In this document: positions 2,713-10,730 of the stretch, one piece after another | How the letters are laid out: every line of letters starts with the position of its first letter | How positions within the stretch are numbered: position 1 is the stretch's first letter | Made by a program: the position numbers and the translations under genes | NCBI GenBank assembly: GCA_017631135.1 | Contig: JAGBTW010000119.1 | Span: forward strand, 1 to 10,730 | Origin: Alistipes sp. | GTDB taxonomy: Bacteria; Bacteroidota; Bacteroidia; Bacteroidales; Rikenellaceae | Length of the DNA stretch: 10,730 bases | Direction of reading: 5' to 3' | Notes under the pieces: model-generated | What the model saw: the letters and a program-made list of their open reading frames with translations, nothing else | What the model was told of the DNA's origin: nothing | Databases searched by the model: none

Positions 2713-2731
2713 GCAAAGTCTATAGCTTTGC
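2713..2731 (-). terminator. Weak hairpin between convergent msrA and ATPase genes
   Basis: GCAAAG (2713-2718) and CTTTGC (2726-2731) form a 6-bp stem with a 7-nt loop that straddles the ATPase stop codon. On the minus strand the stem is followed by a fairly T-rich stretch (CTATTTATGTTTG). The stem is short and the T-tract interrupted, so a terminator role is only a possibility. No other hairpin is seen in the 33-bp convergent gap. Confidence 0.25.
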
Positions 2732-4066
2732 TCTCTCGGCAATAAACCTTTTCAACAAGAAGGTCAAGAAGTATGGGAATGTGTAGAACTTACCATTAAA
2801 ACCAATGTTCTTATACCCCAACTTGATTCCATATTTCACATCTGGATACTTTTCTTCTTTGAGCAGATTATTAAGCGATGCAGTTGCTCCATCATTAGCC
2901 TTTACCTCCACAGGAATGAGCGAGTCAGCATCTCTCACAAAGAAATCCATCTCGAGAGCTGGCTTGTCGCTACTGTAGTAGAAGAGGGAGTACCCTTGCT
3001 TTACAAGCATATCGCCTACTATATTTTCATAAATAGCACCCTTGTATGTGCCCAAATTCTTATTTGCCCTTAAGTCTTCTTGCGCCTCTTCATCAAGCGA
3101 CGCAATCAAAAGACCAGTATCCTTAAAATATATTTTATACAATTTAGGGTCGTAATTGCCTCTGAGGGGCAACTCTGGTTGGTTCATGCAATAGCACACA
3201 TTGATAACACCTGCATCAGCAAGCCACTCCACACATCCAACATAATCTCTATTACGAGCATTGTTTGCGATTTTCGTTATCTGAAAACGCTTATTCTCTT
3301 TTGCAAGGAAGGTGGAGATATGGTTATAGACAGCCTTAACCTTTGCCTTATCCAAACCCACCACATATTTGGTAATATCCTCCTCGTAGTCTGCGAGCAA
3401 CTGCTTTTGTATACCAAGAGTACCACTGAAATTCATATTTTTCATATATGTATTCACAACCTCGGGCATACCTCCAAGAGTAACATAGTCACGGAACAAG
3501 TCGAAAAGAACATCCATTTGCAAATTAGCAAGAGGCTTAATCGCTAACATGTGTTGATAAAGCTCCTCTATAAATTCATCAGAGTACCCCTTTGCCCAAA
3601 GGAACTCCTCGAAATCCATAGAGTGCATCTCATAGTCCTCCTTATATCCAACACTATTTGATTCAATCTCCCTATAGTTGATACCCATCAAAGAGCCCGA
3701 ACAAATAACATCGTATCGTCCATCAAGCTTAAAGAACTTTAATGAAGTAGCACAATTGGGACAAGCCTGTAGCTCATCAAAAAAGAAGATGGTATCGCCT
3801 GGAATAAACTTAAGTTCGGGATTGAGCAAGGATATATTTTTCAAGATAGTATCGACATCAAAACCATCATCGAAAATATTCCTATATTTCTTTTGCTCTA
3901 CGAAATTTATCTGAATAACACTTGCGTAATTCTCCCCAGCAAACTTCTCAATAGAACGCGTTTTTCCAATCTGACGAGCGCCCTTTATAATAAGGGGTTT
4001 TCTATCAGGGTTATTTTTCCATGCAGACAAATAAGTATCTACCTTTCTTTTAAGCAATTCCGACAT
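2720..4066 (-). CDS. AAA-family ATPase with C-terminal DUF4143 / nuclease-like domain
   Basis: Protein of 448 residues with the architecture common in Bacteroidota: N-terminal AAA ATPase (AAA_14 type) plus C-terminal DUF4143. Walker A is GARQIGKT (29-36), Walker B IFFFDELQ (93-100, Asp97/Glu98), and a sensor-1-like strand is ICSGS (121-125). The middle carries the family-typical TLGGMPEVV (196-204). The C-terminal part has YENIVGDML (346-354) and then E-x-D (372-374) with EVK (387-389), resembling a PD-(D/E)xK nuclease core. No signal peptide or membrane segment is seen. The biological role of this family is not established; restriction- or toxin-like functions are speculation. The gene is clearly more AT-rich than its neighbours, is monocistronic, has its own promoter and lies between a convergent gene and a terminator, all suggesting horizontal acquisition. 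All motifs are intact. Confidence 0.9.
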   Translation of the reverse strand: MSELLKRKVDTYLSAWKNNPDRKPLIIKGARQIGKTRSIEKFAGENYASVIQINFVEQKKYRNIFDDGFDVDTILKNISLLNPELKFIPGDTIFFFDELQACPNCATSLKFFKLDGRYDVICSGSLMGINYREIESNSVGYKEDYEMHSMDFEEFLWAKGYSDEFIEELYQHMLAIKPLANLQMDVLFDLFRDYVTLGGMPEVVNTYMKNMNFSGTLGIQKQLLADYEEDITKYVVGLDKAKVKAVYNHISTFLAKENKRFQITKIANNARNRDYVGCVEWLADAGVINVCYCMNQPELPLRGNYDPKLYKIYFKDTGLLIASLDEEAQEDLRANKNLGTYKGAIYENIVGDMLVKQGYSLFYYSSDKPALEMDFFVRDADSLIPVEVKANDGATASLNNLLKEEKYPDVKYGIKLGYKNIGFNGKFYTFPYFLTFLLKRFIAERAKL

Positions 4067-5880: not shown

Positions 5881-6627
5881 TTAGCAGTTCATTGCACCGC
5901 AGCAGTGAATAGTCTGTCCGCTCACATAACCAGAGAGGTCTGACGCAAGGAACAATGCCACGTTAGCAACATCCTCGGGGGTGCCACCGCGACGCATGGG
6001 AATCTGCTGTGCCCACTGATCCTTAACCTCCTGTGAGAGCTGGTTGGTCATGTCGGTGATGATAAAGCCTGGCGCGATGCAGTTTGCACGGATGCCACGA
6101 GGACCCATCTCCTTTGCGATAGACTTTGCAAGACCAATCATACCCGCCTTCGATGCCGAGTAGTTACACTGACCAGCGTTGCCGCTAACACCCACAACAG
6201 ATGACATGTTGATGATAGAGCCACTGCGCTGCTTTGCCATGATAGGTGTTACAGCGTGGATGAAGTTGAACGCCGACTTGAGGTTTACGTTGATAACGGC
6301 ATCCCACTGCGCCTCTGACATACGCATCATTAGACCATCCTTGGTGATGCCTGCGTTGTTCACAAGCACATCGATGCGACCAAAGTCCTCGACAATCTGC
6401 TTAACAACCTCGTGTGTCTCGTCGAAGTTTGCAGCGTTAGAGGCATAAGCCTTCGCCTTCACGCCCATAGCCTCAATCTCCTTTACAGTCTCCTCGACAG
6501 CCTCGTTTACTGCCAAGTCGGTGAATGCCACGTTAGCACCCTCCTGGGCAAAACGCATGGCAATAGCCTTGCCGATGCCACGGCCAGCACCTGTTACGAG
6601 TGCTACCTTACCTTCCAAAAGTTTCAT
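5881..6627 (-). CDS. fabG: 3-oxoacyl-[acyl-carrier-protein] reductase FabG
   Basis: NADPH-dependent reductase that converts beta-ketoacyl-ACP to beta-hydroxyacyl-ACP in fatty acid elongation; cytoplasmic, a short-chain dehydrogenase/reductase. It has 248 residues, close to the 244 of E. coli. Cofactor loop TGAGRGIG (12-19), NNAG (90-93), Asn115, and catalytic Ser143, Tyr156 and Lys160 (YSASK) are all present, as is the IAPGFI segment (184-189). The C-terminus, IHCCGAMNC, differs from the DGG-type ending of many FabGs and has three cysteines in six residues; I cannot tell whether this is clade-typical. It follows fabF by 35 bp and is the last gene of the fabH-fabF-fabG run. Among SDRs the call rests on length, motifs and the fab context. 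Confidence 0.94.
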   Translation of the reverse strand: MKLLEGKVALVTGAGRGIGKAIAMRFAQEGANVAFTDLAVNEAVEETVKEIEAMGVKAKAYASNAANFDETHEVVKQIVEDFGRIDVLVNNAGITKDGLMMRMSEAQWDAVINVNLKSAFNFIHAVTPIMAKQRSGSIINMSSVVGVSGNAGQCNYSASKAGMIGLAKSIAKEMGPRGIRANCIAPGFIITDMTNQLSQEVKDQWAQQIPMRRGGTPEDVANVALFLASDLSGYVSGQTIHCCGAMNC

Positions 6628-6662: not shown

Positions 6663-7916
6663 TTACTGACCATCCCACTTGCGAAGCGCCACACATGCGT
6701 TGTGACCGCCAAAGCCGAGCGAGTTAGAGATAGCCATGGTGAGTGGTGCCTCAACAGCCTTGAGAGGTGTGTAGTCGAGGTCGCACTCGGGGTCGGGGTT
6801 TGTAAGACCAATTGTTGGCGTTACAACACCATGGTGGAGCGACAATGCCGACGCGATGAGCTCCACAGCGCCTGTAGCACCAAGCATGTGACCAGTGATA
6901 GACTTCGTAGAGGTAATCTTCGCTCTCTTTGCAGCCTCCTCACCCATAGCAAGCTTGATAGCCTTGGTCTCGGCAGCATCATTAAGAGGCGTACCAGTAC
7001 CGTGTGCGTTGATGTAGAGGAGGTCCTTCTCTGCGTCGAACTTTGCCTCGTCGAGCGCCTGCTTGATAGCACGCGATGCGGGGATGCCATCGGGGCGAGG
7101 TGCGGTGAAGTGGTGTGCGTCACAGCTGTTGCCATAGCCCACAACCTCGGCATAGATCTTTGCACCACGCTTCAAGGCGTTCTCCAACGACTCAAAAATA
7201 AGCACACCTGCACCCTCTGCAATCACGAAGCCGTGACGGTCAGCCGAGAATGGGAGCGACGCCTGGAGGGGATCCTCCGAGCGTGACAACGCCTTGCTAT
7301 TTGCGAAGCCACCAATAGCCAAGGGGTGCACCGAAGCCTCGGCACCTCCTGTGATGATGGCATCAGCATAGCCGTGCTTGATAGCGCGATATGCCTCACC
7401 AGCGGCGTGAGTACCTGTAGCACACGCAGTAACTACGGGCAAACATACGCCCTGTGCATCGTGCGAAATTGCCACGTTACCAGAAGCGATGTTTGAAATC
7501 ATCATAGGCACGAAGAATGGAGAGATACGACCTACGCCCTCCTCCAACAACACCTTGGTTTGGTTTACGAAGGTGTCCATGCCACCGATACCCGAACCGA
7601 TGTATACACCAAGACGCTCGGGGTCGATGTTCTCGCCACTCTTAAGACCAGCATCTTTCATTGCATCCGATGCTGCTGCCATGGCGTATACACAATATCT
7701 GTCGCTGCGGCGTGCAAGACCCGCGTTGAGCTCATACTCCGACTGGTCAAAGTTCTTAATCTGACCAGCAACCTTCACTGGGAGGTTATACTCATCCAAG
7801 CCCTGGATGAAGTCGATGCCACAGTTGCCCTCAAGGAGGTTCTTCCAAGTCTCCTCAACATGGTTACCCACGGGGGTGATTGCACCAATACCAGTGATAA
7901 CTACTCTCTGTTCCAT
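6663..7916 (-). CDS. fabF: 3-oxoacyl-[acyl-carrier-protein] synthase II FabF
   Basis: Condensing enzyme that extends acyl-ACP by two carbons using malonyl-ACP. It has 417 residues, normal for FabF. The Cys-His-His triad is complete: Cys165 in TACATGTHA, His305 in NAHGTGTPLND and His343 in GHMLGATGA. Other typical segments are GIGAITPVG (9-17), FSADRHGFVIAEGAG (223-237) and NSLGFGGHN (398-406). The start at 7916 fits, with AAGGAA directly before the ATG. It lies 73 bp after fabH and 35 bp before fabG. An acyl carrier protein gene, a frequent fabF neighbour, is not present here. The intact triad argues against a chain-length-factor-type partner; housekeeping elongation is the likely role. Confidence 0.95.
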   Translation of the reverse strand: MEQRVVITGIGAITPVGNHVEETWKNLLEGNCGIDFIQGLDEYNLPVKVAGQIKNFDQSEYELNAGLARRSDRYCVYAMAAASDAMKDAGLKSGENIDPERLGVYIGSGIGGMDTFVNQTKVLLEEGVGRISPFFVPMMISNIASGNVAISHDAQGVCLPVVTACATGTHAAGEAYRAIKHGYADAIITGGAEASVHPLAIGGFANSKALSRSEDPLQASLPFSADRHGFVIAEGAGVLIFESLENALKRGAKIYAEVVGYGNSCDAHHFTAPRPDGIPASRAIKQALDEAKFDAEKDLLYINAHGTGTPLNDAAETKAIKLAMGEEAAKRAKITSTKSITGHMLGATGAVELIASALSLHHGVVTPTIGLTNPDPECDLDYTPLKAVEAPLTMAISNSLGFGGHNACVALRKWDGQ

Positions 7917-7989: not shown

Positions 7990-8943
7990 TTATTTAGCCC
8001 ACTCGATAATGCAAGCACCCGTTGTGAAACCTGCACCAAAGGCGCTGAATACAAGCTTGTCACCCTTGTGGAGCTTGCCCGCACGGTTAAGCTCATCAAG
8101 CAACGCTGGCAGTGCAGCAGACGAGATGTTGCCGTAGCGCTCTACGTTGTGAGGCACCTTCTCCTCCTCTACACCGAGGAAGCCACGAATAGACTCGATA
8201 ATACGGTGGTTTGCCTGGTGCAAGACATAGTACTTGATGTCGTTAGGCTCGAGACCTGTCTGGTGTAGGAGCTTGCGGATGTCGCGGCATGAGTTGGTCA
8301 CAGCATGCTTGAACACCTCGCGACCACGCATCACAAGAGGCTCGAAGTTCTCATCCTTGTCGATGTAGGGTGTAGGCTCGAGGCGACGCTGATAGTAGAG
8401 CACCTCGGTGAGCGACGATGTTGTAAGGCGAATAGCCTTGAGCTCGTCACCCTCGGTAACCACCGCAGCACCTGCGCCATCACCAAAGAGCACACATGTG
8501 CTTCGGTTCTGCCAGCTCACCATGCGCGAGGGCTCCTCGGCACATACGATAAGGATGTTCTTCGCCTTCTTGCACTGAAGCTTATCCTCGGCCATGTCCA
8601 TAGCGAAGAGGAAGCCCGCACATGCGGCGTTAATATCAACTGTAGGACATGTAGCGCCCAACTTGCCCTGAATGATACAGCTCAATGCGGGTGTTACATA
8701 CTCGTTTACTACGTTTGAACAGATAATGAAATCGATGTCGGCAGCTGTGAGTCCCGCATCCTCGAGAGCCTTGTTTGCGGCTATCACAGCGAGATCCTCC
8801 AACTTCTCCGACGAAATTACACAACGCTCTTTAATACCTGTGCGCTCTGTGATCCACTCATCTGTTGTCTCGAGGAATTGCTCGAGCATGTGGTTCGTCA
8901 CTGCACACTTTGGATGCGCCGATCCTGTTCCAATAATTTTCAT
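7990..8943 (-). CDS. fabH: 3-oxoacyl-[acyl-carrier-protein] synthase III FabH
   Basis: Starts fatty acid synthesis by condensing an acyl-CoA primer with malonyl-ACP. It has 317 residues, the same as E. coli FabH. The triad is Cys108 (DINAACAGF), His242 (LHQANHRII) and Asn272 (YGNISSAA). The N-terminal DEWITERTGIKER (28-40) and GDGAGAAV (154-161) are also typical. The gene heads the minus-strand run fabH-fabF-fabG. It lacks the rpmF or plsX neighbours common in other bacteria; upstream is a divergent LytTR-type regulator. Primer preference (acetyl versus branched acyl-CoA) cannot be judged from sequence reading. No Shine-Dalgarno is evident before the ATG at 8943. Confidence 0.95.
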   Translation of the reverse strand: MKIIGTGSAHPKCAVTNHMLEQFLETTDEWITERTGIKERCVISSEKLEDLAVIAANKALEDAGLTAADIDFIICSNVVNEYVTPALSCIIQGKLGATCPTVDINAACAGFLFAMDMAEDKLQCKKAKNILIVCAEEPSRMVSWQNRSTCVLFGDGAGAAVVTEGDELKAIRLTTSSLTEVLYYQRRLEPTPYIDKDENFEPLVMRGREVFKHAVTNSCRDIRKLLHQTGLEPNDIKYYVLHQANHRIIESIRGFLGVEEEKVPHNVERYGNISSAALPALLDELNRAGKLHKGDKLVFSAFGAGFTTGACIIEWAK

Positions 8944-9066: not shown

Positions 9067-9074
9067 CAAAGATA
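9067..9074 (-). promoter_or_regulatory. Predicted -7 box of the fabH-fabF-fabG operon
   Basis: The minus strand reads TATCTTTG (9074-9067), a perfect TAnnTTTG match. Transcription would start near 9061, giving a leader of about 117 nt before fabH. No TTTG -33 box lies 19-21 nt upstream, which may mean dependence on an activator; the 20-bp repeat array begins 30 bp upstream of this box. Confidence 0.5.
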
Positions 9075-9103
9075 GATGTCTCGTTCGTATACGCACGCGA
9101 ATT

Positions 9104-9153
9104 GTGGTGGAAAATGCTATTCTGTGGTGAAAACATATAATAAGTGGTAAAAA
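9104..9153. repeat. Three direct repeats at exactly 20-bp spacing, likely operator array
   Basis: GTGGTGGAAAA (9104-9114), GTGGTGAAAA (9124-9133) and GTGGTAAAAA (9144-9153) start exactly 20 bp apart, nearly two helical turns, while the intervening bases are unrelated. The last copy ends one base before the TTTG -33 box of the LytTR gene promoter, and the first lies 30 bp from the fabH -7 box. LytTR-family regulators commonly bind phased direct repeats of about 9 bp, so autoregulation, and possibly control of fabH, is a reasonable inference. Confidence 0.7.
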
Positions 9154-9154
9154 T

Positions 9155-9185
9155 TTTGCAATAAATAGTTTTTTTCTTATTTTTG
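9155..9185 (+). promoter_or_regulatory. Predicted promoter of the LytTR gene
   Basis: TTTG (9155-9158), 19 nt, then TATTTTTG (9178-9185) is a full match to the Bacteroidota consensus. Transcription should start near 9190, about 14 nt before the ATG at 9204. The -7 box includes the TTG that would be an alternative start at 9183, which rules that start out. Confidence 0.75.
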
Positions 9186-9203: not shown

Positions 9204-10172
9204 ATGAGACACTACGAAATACCAAAATTTCTTGTTTCGAGCCGCTATATCGCAGCGACAATAGCATCGGTGGTGCTCTTCTCTGCGATATTCCTTATAA
9301 GCTACAAGCCCTTCTCCTTGGCTATGTGGTTCAACCCCGACAACATGGTGAGCATGCTCTTCACGTTGCTCTTCTATGTCGGAGCAATAGTCATACTCAT
9401 CATCAGTCGCATGACGATGTACAGGCTTCAAGATAGGGTCGAAATTACCACGATGCAGTATCTGTGTTGGTTGTTTGGCGAGGCGTTAGCAATCACGCTT
9501 CTATACACCTTTGTCACCTACCGCTTCTTCGCCGACTCGGGCTACTCGGTTGTTGACATCGGCATGCGCGCGCTATTCTGCATAACTACAATTCTCGCCA
9601 TACCCAACATCCTTATCTCGTTCTATGCGGGCTATCGCTCGAAGTGCGAGGAGCTCGAAGTGGCGCAGTATGAGCTAAAGCGCCTTGGCGAGGAGTACAA
9701 CCGCCTGATAAGTCGTTCGGAGGGTGAGCGCAGAGTGCTGGAGATGATTCCGAAGAGCGACTCACTTGCGCGCAGCCCACGCATGGTGCACTTCTACGAC
9801 AATGGTGGCACACTGCGCCTTACAATAGACATCAACGCGCTATACTTCCTTGAGTCAGAGGACAATTATATAAAGATACACTACAAACACAACGACAAGA
9901 TTTCATCTTACCTCTTGCGTTGTAAGACAAGCACCATTGAAAAGAGCCTCGAGGGCAGTGCCATGGTGCGCTGTCACCGCTCCTACATCGTCAACACCAC
10001 GAAGATACGCTTCATGGGTGAGGAGCACAGGATGCGATACCTCACGCTCGACGACGATAGCATCAAGCGCATACCCGTATCAAAGAGCTACTATACAACA
10101 CTGCTCTCGTCGCTTAACACCATTGACACAAAGAAGGAGAGCCCCGAGGTGGCAGTTGTAGGCGAGGCATAG
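9204..10172 (+). CDS. Membrane-anchored LytTR-domain transcriptional regulator
   Basis: Protein of 322 residues with four predicted membrane segments (about 16-34, 49-68, 84-106 and 117-141), a short charged, probably coiled-coil stretch (148-168) and a C-terminal LytTR DNA-binding domain (about 195-300). The domain shows LYFLESEDNYIKIHY (213-227), the signature MVRCHRSYIVN (254-264) and IPVSKSYY (290-297). There is no phospho-receiver domain, so it is not a classical response regulator; DNA binding from the membrane, perhaps responding to a membrane or envelope signal, is inference. The ATG at 9204 is chosen since the promoter overlaps the upstream TTG. It diverges from fabH and lies 110 bp before a CotH-like lipoprotein gene on the same strand. 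The phased repeats next to its promoter suggest autoregulation. Confidence 0.9.
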   Translation: MRHYEIPKFLVSSRYIAATIASVVLFSAIFLISYKPFSLAMWFNPDNMVSMLFTLLFYVGAIVILIISRMTMYRLQDRVEITTMQYLCWLFGEALAITLLYTFVTYRFFADSGYSVVDIGMRALFCITTILAIPNILISFYAGYRSKCEELEVAQYELKRLGEEYNRLISRSEGERRVLEMIPKSDSLARSPRMVHFYDNGGTLRLTIDINALYFLESEDNYIKIHYKHNDKISSYLLRCKTSTIEKSLEGSAMVRCHRSYIVNTTKIRFMGEEHRMRYLTLDDDSIKRIPVSKSYYTTLLSSLNTIDTKKESPEVAVVGEA

Positions 10173-10282: not shown

Positions 10283-10730
10283 ATGAAGAGATTTGGCTTT
10301 CTTACTACTGTTGTTATGCTACTAATGTCGCTCACGGTGGCATGCGTTGATGACAACGATTTCATCTTGCCCGACAACGGCAATGAGCAACCCAACGAGG
10401 GCAACGATGACAAAGATGATGGAAAGGGTGACGAAGAGGAGACCCCTACACCCCAGCCCCCTGTAAACGGAGACTATCCCGATAGTTCTTGGGCATCAGA
10501 TGGCATGAGGTGGGTATTCGACATGGAGGCGCTGCCCGAGATACATATCGAGGTGAGCGAGGAGGAGTGGAACAGACTCCTTGAGGAGTACGACCGCAAT
10601 AGCGACACCAATGCCTATATACACTGCGACGTAGATTTCGAGTCCAAGGGCGAGTCACACAGCTTCGAGGATGCGGGTCTACGCTTGCGTGGCAACACCT
10701 CGCGCCGCCGCCCCGAGGGCAATGGTGGCG
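10283..10730 (+). CDS. CotH-family surface lipoprotein (partial, N-terminal part)
   Basis: The frame runs from the ATG at 10283 through the right edge: 149 codons seen. Residues 1-20 form a signal peptide (MKR, then a hydrophobic stretch) ending in LTVA-Cys21, a lipobox-like site. The following VDDNDF is acidic, resembling the Bacteroidota lipoprotein export signal that sends lipoproteins to the cell surface. A low-complexity linker rich in Asp, Glu, Asn, Gly and Pro spans about 30-62. Then MRWVFDMEALPEIHIEVSEE (74-93) and LRLRGNTSRRRPEG (133-146) match the start of the CotH domain as found in Bacteroidota lipoproteins. CotH of Bacillus is a spore-coat protein kinase; whether this protein has kinase activity cannot be judged because the catalytic part is outside the window. 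It follows the LytTR gene by 110 bp with its own -7 box. Confidence 0.82.
   Translation, partial: MKRFGFLTTVVMLLMSLTVACVDDNDFILPDNGNEQPNEGNDDKDDGKGDEEETPTPQPPVNGDYPDSSWASDGMRWVFDMEALPEIHIEVSEEEWNRLLEEYDRNSDTNAYIHCDVDFESKGESHSFEDAGLRLRGNTSRRRPEGNGG

Follow-up and report, generated by a model that had tools for sequence, protein, structure and literature searches.

Three short direct repeats lie between a fatty-acid synthesis operon and the divergent gene of a LytTR regulator with a predicted membrane part, and this locus raises the question of which protein would read the repeats and which of the two promoters would be controlled. A first-pass annotation had proposed that the regulator controls itself and possibly the fab operon. 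Here, the window (the whole stretch of DNA analysed, 10,730 nucleotides) was compared with the corresponding loci of related genomes. The window is contig C126 of the incomplete genome G000 (1.29 Mb, 63% complete), and the named genomes closest to it are MAGs of Alistipes and other Rikenellaceae, most of which come from ruminant gut.

Gene layout and the regulator protein

On the minus strand, the window carries in order fabH (β-ketoacyl-ACP synthase III, 7990..8943), fabF (β-ketoacyl-ACP synthase II, 6663..7916) and fabG (3-oxoacyl-ACP reductase, 5881..6627), all assigned by Pfam, and fabH and fabG also by NCBIfam matches above cut-off (TIGR00747 and TIGR01830, respectively). This fabH is the sole PF08541 match in the 63% of the genome that is present. 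The regulator gene, lytTR (9204..10172, plus strand, 322 aa), is divergent to fabH, with 260 bp between the two start codons. Downstream of lytTR, a gene at 10283-10730 appears lipoprotein-like by eye, has no Pfam family and is cut by the contig end; a match to it was also seen in 4 of 80 named loci. Elsewhere in the window, an AAA_14/DUF4143 ATPase gene lies at 2720-4066, and the surrounding genes are otherwise housekeeping ones.

The lytTR protein has the C-terminal PF04397 domain of the LytTR family (9822..10109, plus strand; residues 207-302, E 3e-15, 56.7 bits against a cut-off of 22.6), and the Pfam scan gave nothing else at E ≤ 0.001, including the MHYT domain (PF03707) of the CoxC subfamily. 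In the structure model (mean pLDDT 79.9; pTM 0.45, so that the arrangement of domains is unsure), helices span residues 13-33, 48-78, 83-112 and 116-181, all N-terminal of the DNA-binding domain, and the last of these is a long helix leading toward it. From reading the sequence by eye, these N-terminal helices are predicted to cross the membrane. Four residues of the N-terminal part, W89, E93, Y101 and P134, are invariant. Foldseek matched the model to the LytTR structures of AgrA and ComE, and at E ≤ 0.001 the structure search returned LytTR-domain matches alone, thus the membrane part has no named relative among them. In LRS systems a soluble regulator and a separate inhibitory membrane protein share one operon; here, the regulator itself has long N-terminal helices, and its neighbours are fabH and the lipoprotein-like gene.

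The repeat array and the two promoters

The three cores are GTGGTGGAA (9104..9112), GTGGTGAAA (9124..9132) and GTGGTAAAA (9144..9152), all given on the plus strand. They are of the GTGGYRAAW type, 9 bp each, with a period of exactly 20 bp and thus gaps of 11 bp, as the first-pass annotation had stated. The array therefore has the form given for LytTR sites in passages of PMC11347149, namely direct repeats of ∼9 bp near the -35 region with 10-13 bp between them. One base beyond the third core begins TTTTG (9154-9158), which contains the predicted -33 box of lytTR, TTG (9156..9158, plus strand), so the claimed abutment of array and promoter was also correct. The predicted lytTR -7 box, TATTTTTG (9178..9185, plus strand), is 25 bp from repeat 3 and 19 bp from this TTG, and TTG-19 bp-TATTTTTG is what we take to be a good Bacteroidota promoter. 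A promoter of the form TGTA-19-TATCTTTG is quoted in a passage of PMC6193735. On the other side, the predicted fabH -7 box, TATCTTTG (9067..9074, minus strand), is separated from repeat 1 by 29 bases, where the first-pass annotation had given 30. At the position of the fabH -33 element (9094..9096, minus strand), GTG replaces the consensus TTG.

A general repeat search of the window (seed 6) did not list the array family, and the array was therefore scored by script, taking any three equally spaced 9-mers with a spacing of 15-30. When the intergenic region (260 bp) was shuffled 1000 times with dinucleotides preserved, the observed score of 23 was matched once. Thus, within the window by itself, the array is fairly but not overwhelmingly unlikely to occur by chance. 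The scan for further arrays that had been suggested gave none in G000: a two-core pattern with up to two mismatches matched the window site only, as two overlapping pairs, and the reversed control pattern matched once.

Conservation of the array in relatives

Loci around lytTR were collapsed by merging those with identical DNA around the lytTR start and by excluding starts cut by a contig end (e.g. L031). Of the 96 distinct loci left among those fetched first, 78 have lytTR opposite fabH (adjacent or separated from it by acpP), 6 have it opposite fabF and 12 opposite neither. The fabH loci were divided into a close set, with regulator identity of at least 42% (n = 41), and a distant set (n = 37).

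An array at p ≤ 0.01 (300 shuffles per locus) was found in all 78 fabH loci, 41/41 close and 37/37 distant; these loci have common ancestry, and their counts are not numbers of independent events. In the close set, columns of the cores hold 1.58-1.64 bits of information and those of the spacers 0.87-1.04, TAT is conserved before the second and third cores, and there is no conserved GTGG half-way between cores. The spacing is 20/20 in 41/41 close loci, and 20/21 in 21 of the 37 distant ones. Among the relatives with the gene pair are Tidjanibacter MAGs. Moreover, fabH-linked arrays extend over at least three families of the Bacteroidales (f1, f9 and f102), and arrays of three to seven copies recur at fab promoters down to a lytTR identity of 25-34%. 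The alignment of relatives that had been asked for thus bore out cores, spacing and phase alike, and this conservation removes the doubt about chance left by the shuffles of the window. Judged by these comparisons, the array is real and deeply conserved.

Promoter geometry and the probable sign of regulation

To measure how far the fabH -7 box is from the first scored core, the first TAnnTTTG at a distance of 20 bp or more was taken as the box, a rule that replaced a nearer -7 match in two loci; the one fabH locus of 78 that has no -7 box was left out. Among the remaining 77, this distance is 29/30 bp in 66, 39/40 bp in 5 and 49/50 bp in 6, and at least four of the last group (L028, L124, L154 and L067) have a weaker extra copy ∼20 bp nearer. 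Between the -7 box and the start codon of fabH lie 28 to 411 bp, depending on the locus, and in a few loci these include acpP. Thus, the distance between box and core shifts only in steps of ∼10 bp where length is otherwise free, which indicates that helical phase is kept.

TTG at the -33 position of fabH occurs in 0/40 close and 3/37 distant promoters, against backgrounds of 0.09 and 0.13, respectively. At the -33 position of lytTR it occurs in 35/38 close and 3/30 distant promoters; since the distant lytTR promoters are also without TTG, a missing -33 element is not specific to fabH in the distant clade. The presence of a -7 box, the lack of a -33 box and the sites just upstream suggest the layout of an activated promoter, and according to passages of PMC11347149 the majority of LytTR regulators are activators that act from positions upstream of -35. 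Activation is most likely the sign of regulation at fabH. On the lytTR side, 25 bp separate the third core from the lytTR -7 box in 36/41 close loci and 26 bp in 2/41 (no box was found in 3/41), and in 3 of 5 acpP-led loci (L024, L076 and L145) that box is 15 bp from repeat 3, so that the array covers the lytTR -33 region. At loci with such an overlap, repression of lytTR is as easily argued as activation; by analogy, an array abutting the -33 box is the layout that in CoxC means repression.

From sequence, we consider it likely that the array is the operator of a membrane one-component LytTR regulator that activates the fabH-fabF-fabG operon and tunes its own promoter in response to a putative membrane or lipid signal. 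In the model that we infer, for DNA binding as well as for fabH activation, autoregulation and the signal, one LytTR domain would probably occupy each repeat, with all domains facing roughly the same side of the helix. Once bound, the regulator would most likely activate the divergent fabH-fabF-fabG promoter, which has a -7 box and no -33 box, and would tune its own promoter from the opposite end of the array. The four-helix membrane part, joined to the DNA-binding domain by one long helix, may adjust this control to the membrane or lipid signal.

A different sign with the same operator is rather unlikely, though it deserves to be weighed: the regulator would repress fabH and itself, and a membrane or lipid signal would release both, as CO does with CoxC. 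The passages of PMC11347149 do describe a repressor in CoxC, which is a membrane LytTR protein and has an operator of three direct repeats, and the adjoining of array and lytTR -33 box, together with the array extending over that box in the three acpP-led loci, fits such a role. However, repeat 1 does not cover the position of the fabH -33 element but lies upstream of it, at 29 bp from the -7 box, and the lack of a -33 TTG would be odd in fabH promoters that were active unless repressed.

The array and the position of the regulator gene

An lytTR ortholog (E ≤ 1e-28) is present in 31 of 61 genomes of the genus, and 30 are without it. The exact two-core pattern was found in 15/31 genomes with the regulator versus 0/30 without; 16 of the 31 miss the pattern too, because their arrays are more divergent or their lytTR faces fabF, and thus its absence from the 30 regulator-free genomes tests the link only in part. 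Of the 31 orthologs, 30 adjoin a fab gene (26 at fabH or acpP-fabH, 4 at fabF), and in the remaining genome, G026, the contig ends at lytTR. A gene-blind pattern scan of 151 genus genomes matched 34, of which 31 at a fab site, and the reversed pattern matched 2 genomes. These 31 comprise 27 of the 30 fetched loci, G002, G025 and G179, and G122, whose array is identical to that of L091. Sites away from fab genes are few (G144, G151 and G181, plus a single additional one in each of G131 and G002); at such loci, any third core of L036, L074 and L075 has ∼3 mismatches at best, and L044 and L048 have no third core. In these genomes, the array is tied to the lytTR gene.

In two genomes of family f102, G351 and G499, lytTR is at the far end of a fabH-fabF-acpP-fabG cluster and points toward it. 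A four-copy array is retained at their fabH promoter, and no array was found at their lytTR, which has its own promoter-like box. Two further genomes of that genus, G251 and G436, still have lytTR opposite fabH; between the two genes of G436 (L241), ∼7 phased copies of the GTGACGAAA type are seen, 19-22 bp apart. Since the array stays at fabH where lytTR is elsewhere, control of the fab operon, which had been put forward as a mere possibility, is the best-supported part of the proposal, and the regulator very probably controls fatty-acid synthesis genes. Control of its own gene, which had been stated more firmly, is likely in most genomes but probably not universal, as no array was found at lytTR in these two.

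In other arrangements the gene link can outlive the array, which is mostly lost at loci facing fabF or fabG. At fabF-facing loci, an array was found at p ≤ 0.05 in 2/6 (L144 and L018) and at p ≤ 0.01 in 1/6, and in the other 4/6 none was better than shuffles; at the fabG-facing loci L149 and L152 it was found in 0/2. Among all 12 loci that face neither fabH nor fabF, 4 have an array at p ≤ 0.01 (L066, L068, L069 and L070) and 8, which include L149 and L152, have no significant one, with L071 near (p 0.08).

The FabH enzymes of the genus were also compared. The linked FabH type (E ≤ 1e-60) occurs in 0/30 genus genomes without the regulator. Among 22 genus genomes, 18 have exactly one FabH and 4 have none. 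The single FabH is the lytTR-linked one in the 11 genomes in which lytTR faces fabH, and 7 genomes without lytTR have one FabH each, with no match to the linked type at E ≤ 1e-60. This difference suggests replacement of the enzyme together with the regulator. In G008, G027, G034 and G039 (L018, L030, L032 and L033), lytTR is opposite fabF and no FabH match (PF08541, E ≤ 0.001) was found; one of these genomes is 99% complete.

Relatives outside the fab clade

Some more distant regulators have a similar array at other genes. At L066 and L068-L071 (lytTR identity 23-28%), three GKGGYRAAW-like cores at 20/20 spacing are upstream of lytTR, and in four of these five loci the array is at p ≤ 0.01. 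A whole-genome scan of 18 genomes of other families matched 4 and gave none in 14 (reversed pattern, 1); the match in G068 is at fabH, and those in G089, G090 and G097 are only upstream of a non-fab lytTR relative. Relatives of lytTR are opposite DUF6051 at L066, L068, L071, L245 and L246, and at these loci the GKGGYRAAW array with its 20-bp period is clear in L066 and L068 and weaker in L071 and L245. DUF6051 is placed among the alpha/beta hydrolases and co-occurs with LytTR and a fatty-acid-CoA ligase in passages of PMC11878206; a sequence comparison of one DUF6051 protein with solved structures gave no match. In a midpoint-rooted tree of 54 of the 103 proteins, for which the fabH loci of the named collection were thinned to one in three, fab-linked and DUF6051-linked regulators are split by a branch with support 100/98. 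Five rows labelled 'other' fall on the fab side, and they are cut by a contig end, face fabG, or belong to G499.

These relatives bear on the improbable reading that the array serves autoregulation alone and that fabH is opposite by coincidence. The array is kept upstream of lytTR in L066 and L068, where DUF6051 is the facing gene, and the lytTR promoter of the window is a consensus one, both as this reading would have it. Against it, the array of G351 and G499 is at fabH and not at lytTR, and across the fabH loci the distance between array and fabH -7 box moves only in 10-bp steps, although the stretch from that box to the start codon varies over 28-411 bp.

Less probable readings: an MraZ box or chance repeats

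A reading of the array as a modified MraZ box, which also consists of GTGG repeats, with MraZ as the protein that binds it, is very improbable. The core GTGGTAAAA does recur upstream of mraZ in other Bacteroidales. However, MraZ boxes are GTGG repeats with a 10-bp period upstream of mraZ, and the window array has a period of 20 bp without conserved GTGG at the half-way positions, neighbours fabH and lytTR, and accompanies lytTR and fab genes in relatives. An order-wide pattern scan matched 43 of 393 genomes; among the 29 loci newly fetched from it (L208-L236), 23 are mraZ-like by eye (only L210 confirmed by Pfam), 2 are fabH arrays (L216 and L217) and 4 are neither. As Bacteroidales MraZ boxes have the same GTGGTAAAA core at a 10-bp period, a period-blind motif search would mix both kinds of site.

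Finally, that chance repeats were retained through common ancestry, for which the one shuffle in 1000 equalling the window score might be cited, is refuted for practical purposes by core conservation far exceeding that of the spacers, by the array in 78/78 fabH loci and by its recurrence at fab promoters down to a lytTR identity of 25-34%.

Significance

Activation of fabH by a membrane LytTR regulator would matter in a dominant gut phylum, the Bacteroidota, for which the locus provides a specific candidate regulator of fatty-acid synthesis together with operator and target promoter. The genomes G351 and G499 offer a natural experiment, as the regulator gene lies elsewhere and the operator stays at fabH. 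Were the membrane part to sense lipids, membrane state and fabH transcription would be connected through a single protein. More tentatively, a membrane-embedded factor may directly read the state of the bilayer and set transcription of fabH, whose enzyme starts fatty-acid synthesis, through a helically phased operator, which would make it a one-protein switch of lipid homeostasis in Rikenellaceae and related Bacteroidales, with relatives in the same order wired to the predicted alpha/beta hydrolase DUF6051; we hold this larger picture as a possibility and somewhat doubt it.

Among the titles and abstract openings of open-licence papers that were listed, none linked a LytTR regulator to fab genes in Bacteroidota, and none named a transcriptional regulator of fatty-acid synthesis in this phylum. 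The view of the first-pass annotation that no such system was known to it agrees with this as far as the fab target is concerned, but membrane LytTR proteins and triple-repeat operators are described in passages of PMC11347149 and PMC6193735. What looks new is the fatty-acid synthesis target of a membrane one-component LytTR protein.

Comparison with known systems

In passages of PMC11347149, the sites of LytTR regulators are described as two 9-bp repeats with 10-13 bp between them, and three repeats are given for RcoM1 and CoxC. CoxC of Afipia carboxidovorans is described there as a membrane-bound, CO-responsive one-component repressor of cox genes. Like the window protein, it joins a membrane sensor to a C-terminal LytTR domain, and its operator consists of three direct repeats at the -35 region (PMC11347149, same passages). 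CoxC differs in having seven membrane segments of the MHYT type, in responding to CO with copper and in repressing cox genes (ibid.), whereas the window protein has about four predicted membrane helices and no MHYT match and is opposite fatty-acid genes.

RcoM1 is a soluble haem sensor that responds to CO. In this protein of Paraburkholderia xenovorans, the LytTR domain acts on a triplet of evenly spaced direct repeats, as proposed for the window; it controls cox genes, and its repeat is TTCNNGCA with gaps of 12-13 bp (passages of PMC11347149).

The LRS-like operons of Bacteroides, as far as passages of PMC6193735 describe them, likewise have a LytTR regulator with several membrane segments and direct repeats 11 bp apart upstream of the promoter, and autoregulation is presumed for them. 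Their operators consist of two 11-bp repeats of a different sequence (TCCGG...), and a partner membrane protein (NfeD-like/DUF2154) is encoded with the regulator (PMC6193735). In contrast, lytTR of the window has three 9-bp cores and no membrane-partner neighbour, and its upstream neighbour, where an NfeD or DUF2154 gene would be expected in such an operon, is the divergent fabH. The DUF6051-LytTR neighbours of PMC11878206 resemble our locus in that related regulators are divergent to DUF6051, with a similar array in L066 and L068. The target gene differs, and the passages of that source are silent on array and fab genes.

With respect to function, the proposed regulator resembles FapR, FabT and FadR, which exert dedicated transcriptional control of fatty-acid genes. 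These three are soluble proteins of other folds and from other phyla.
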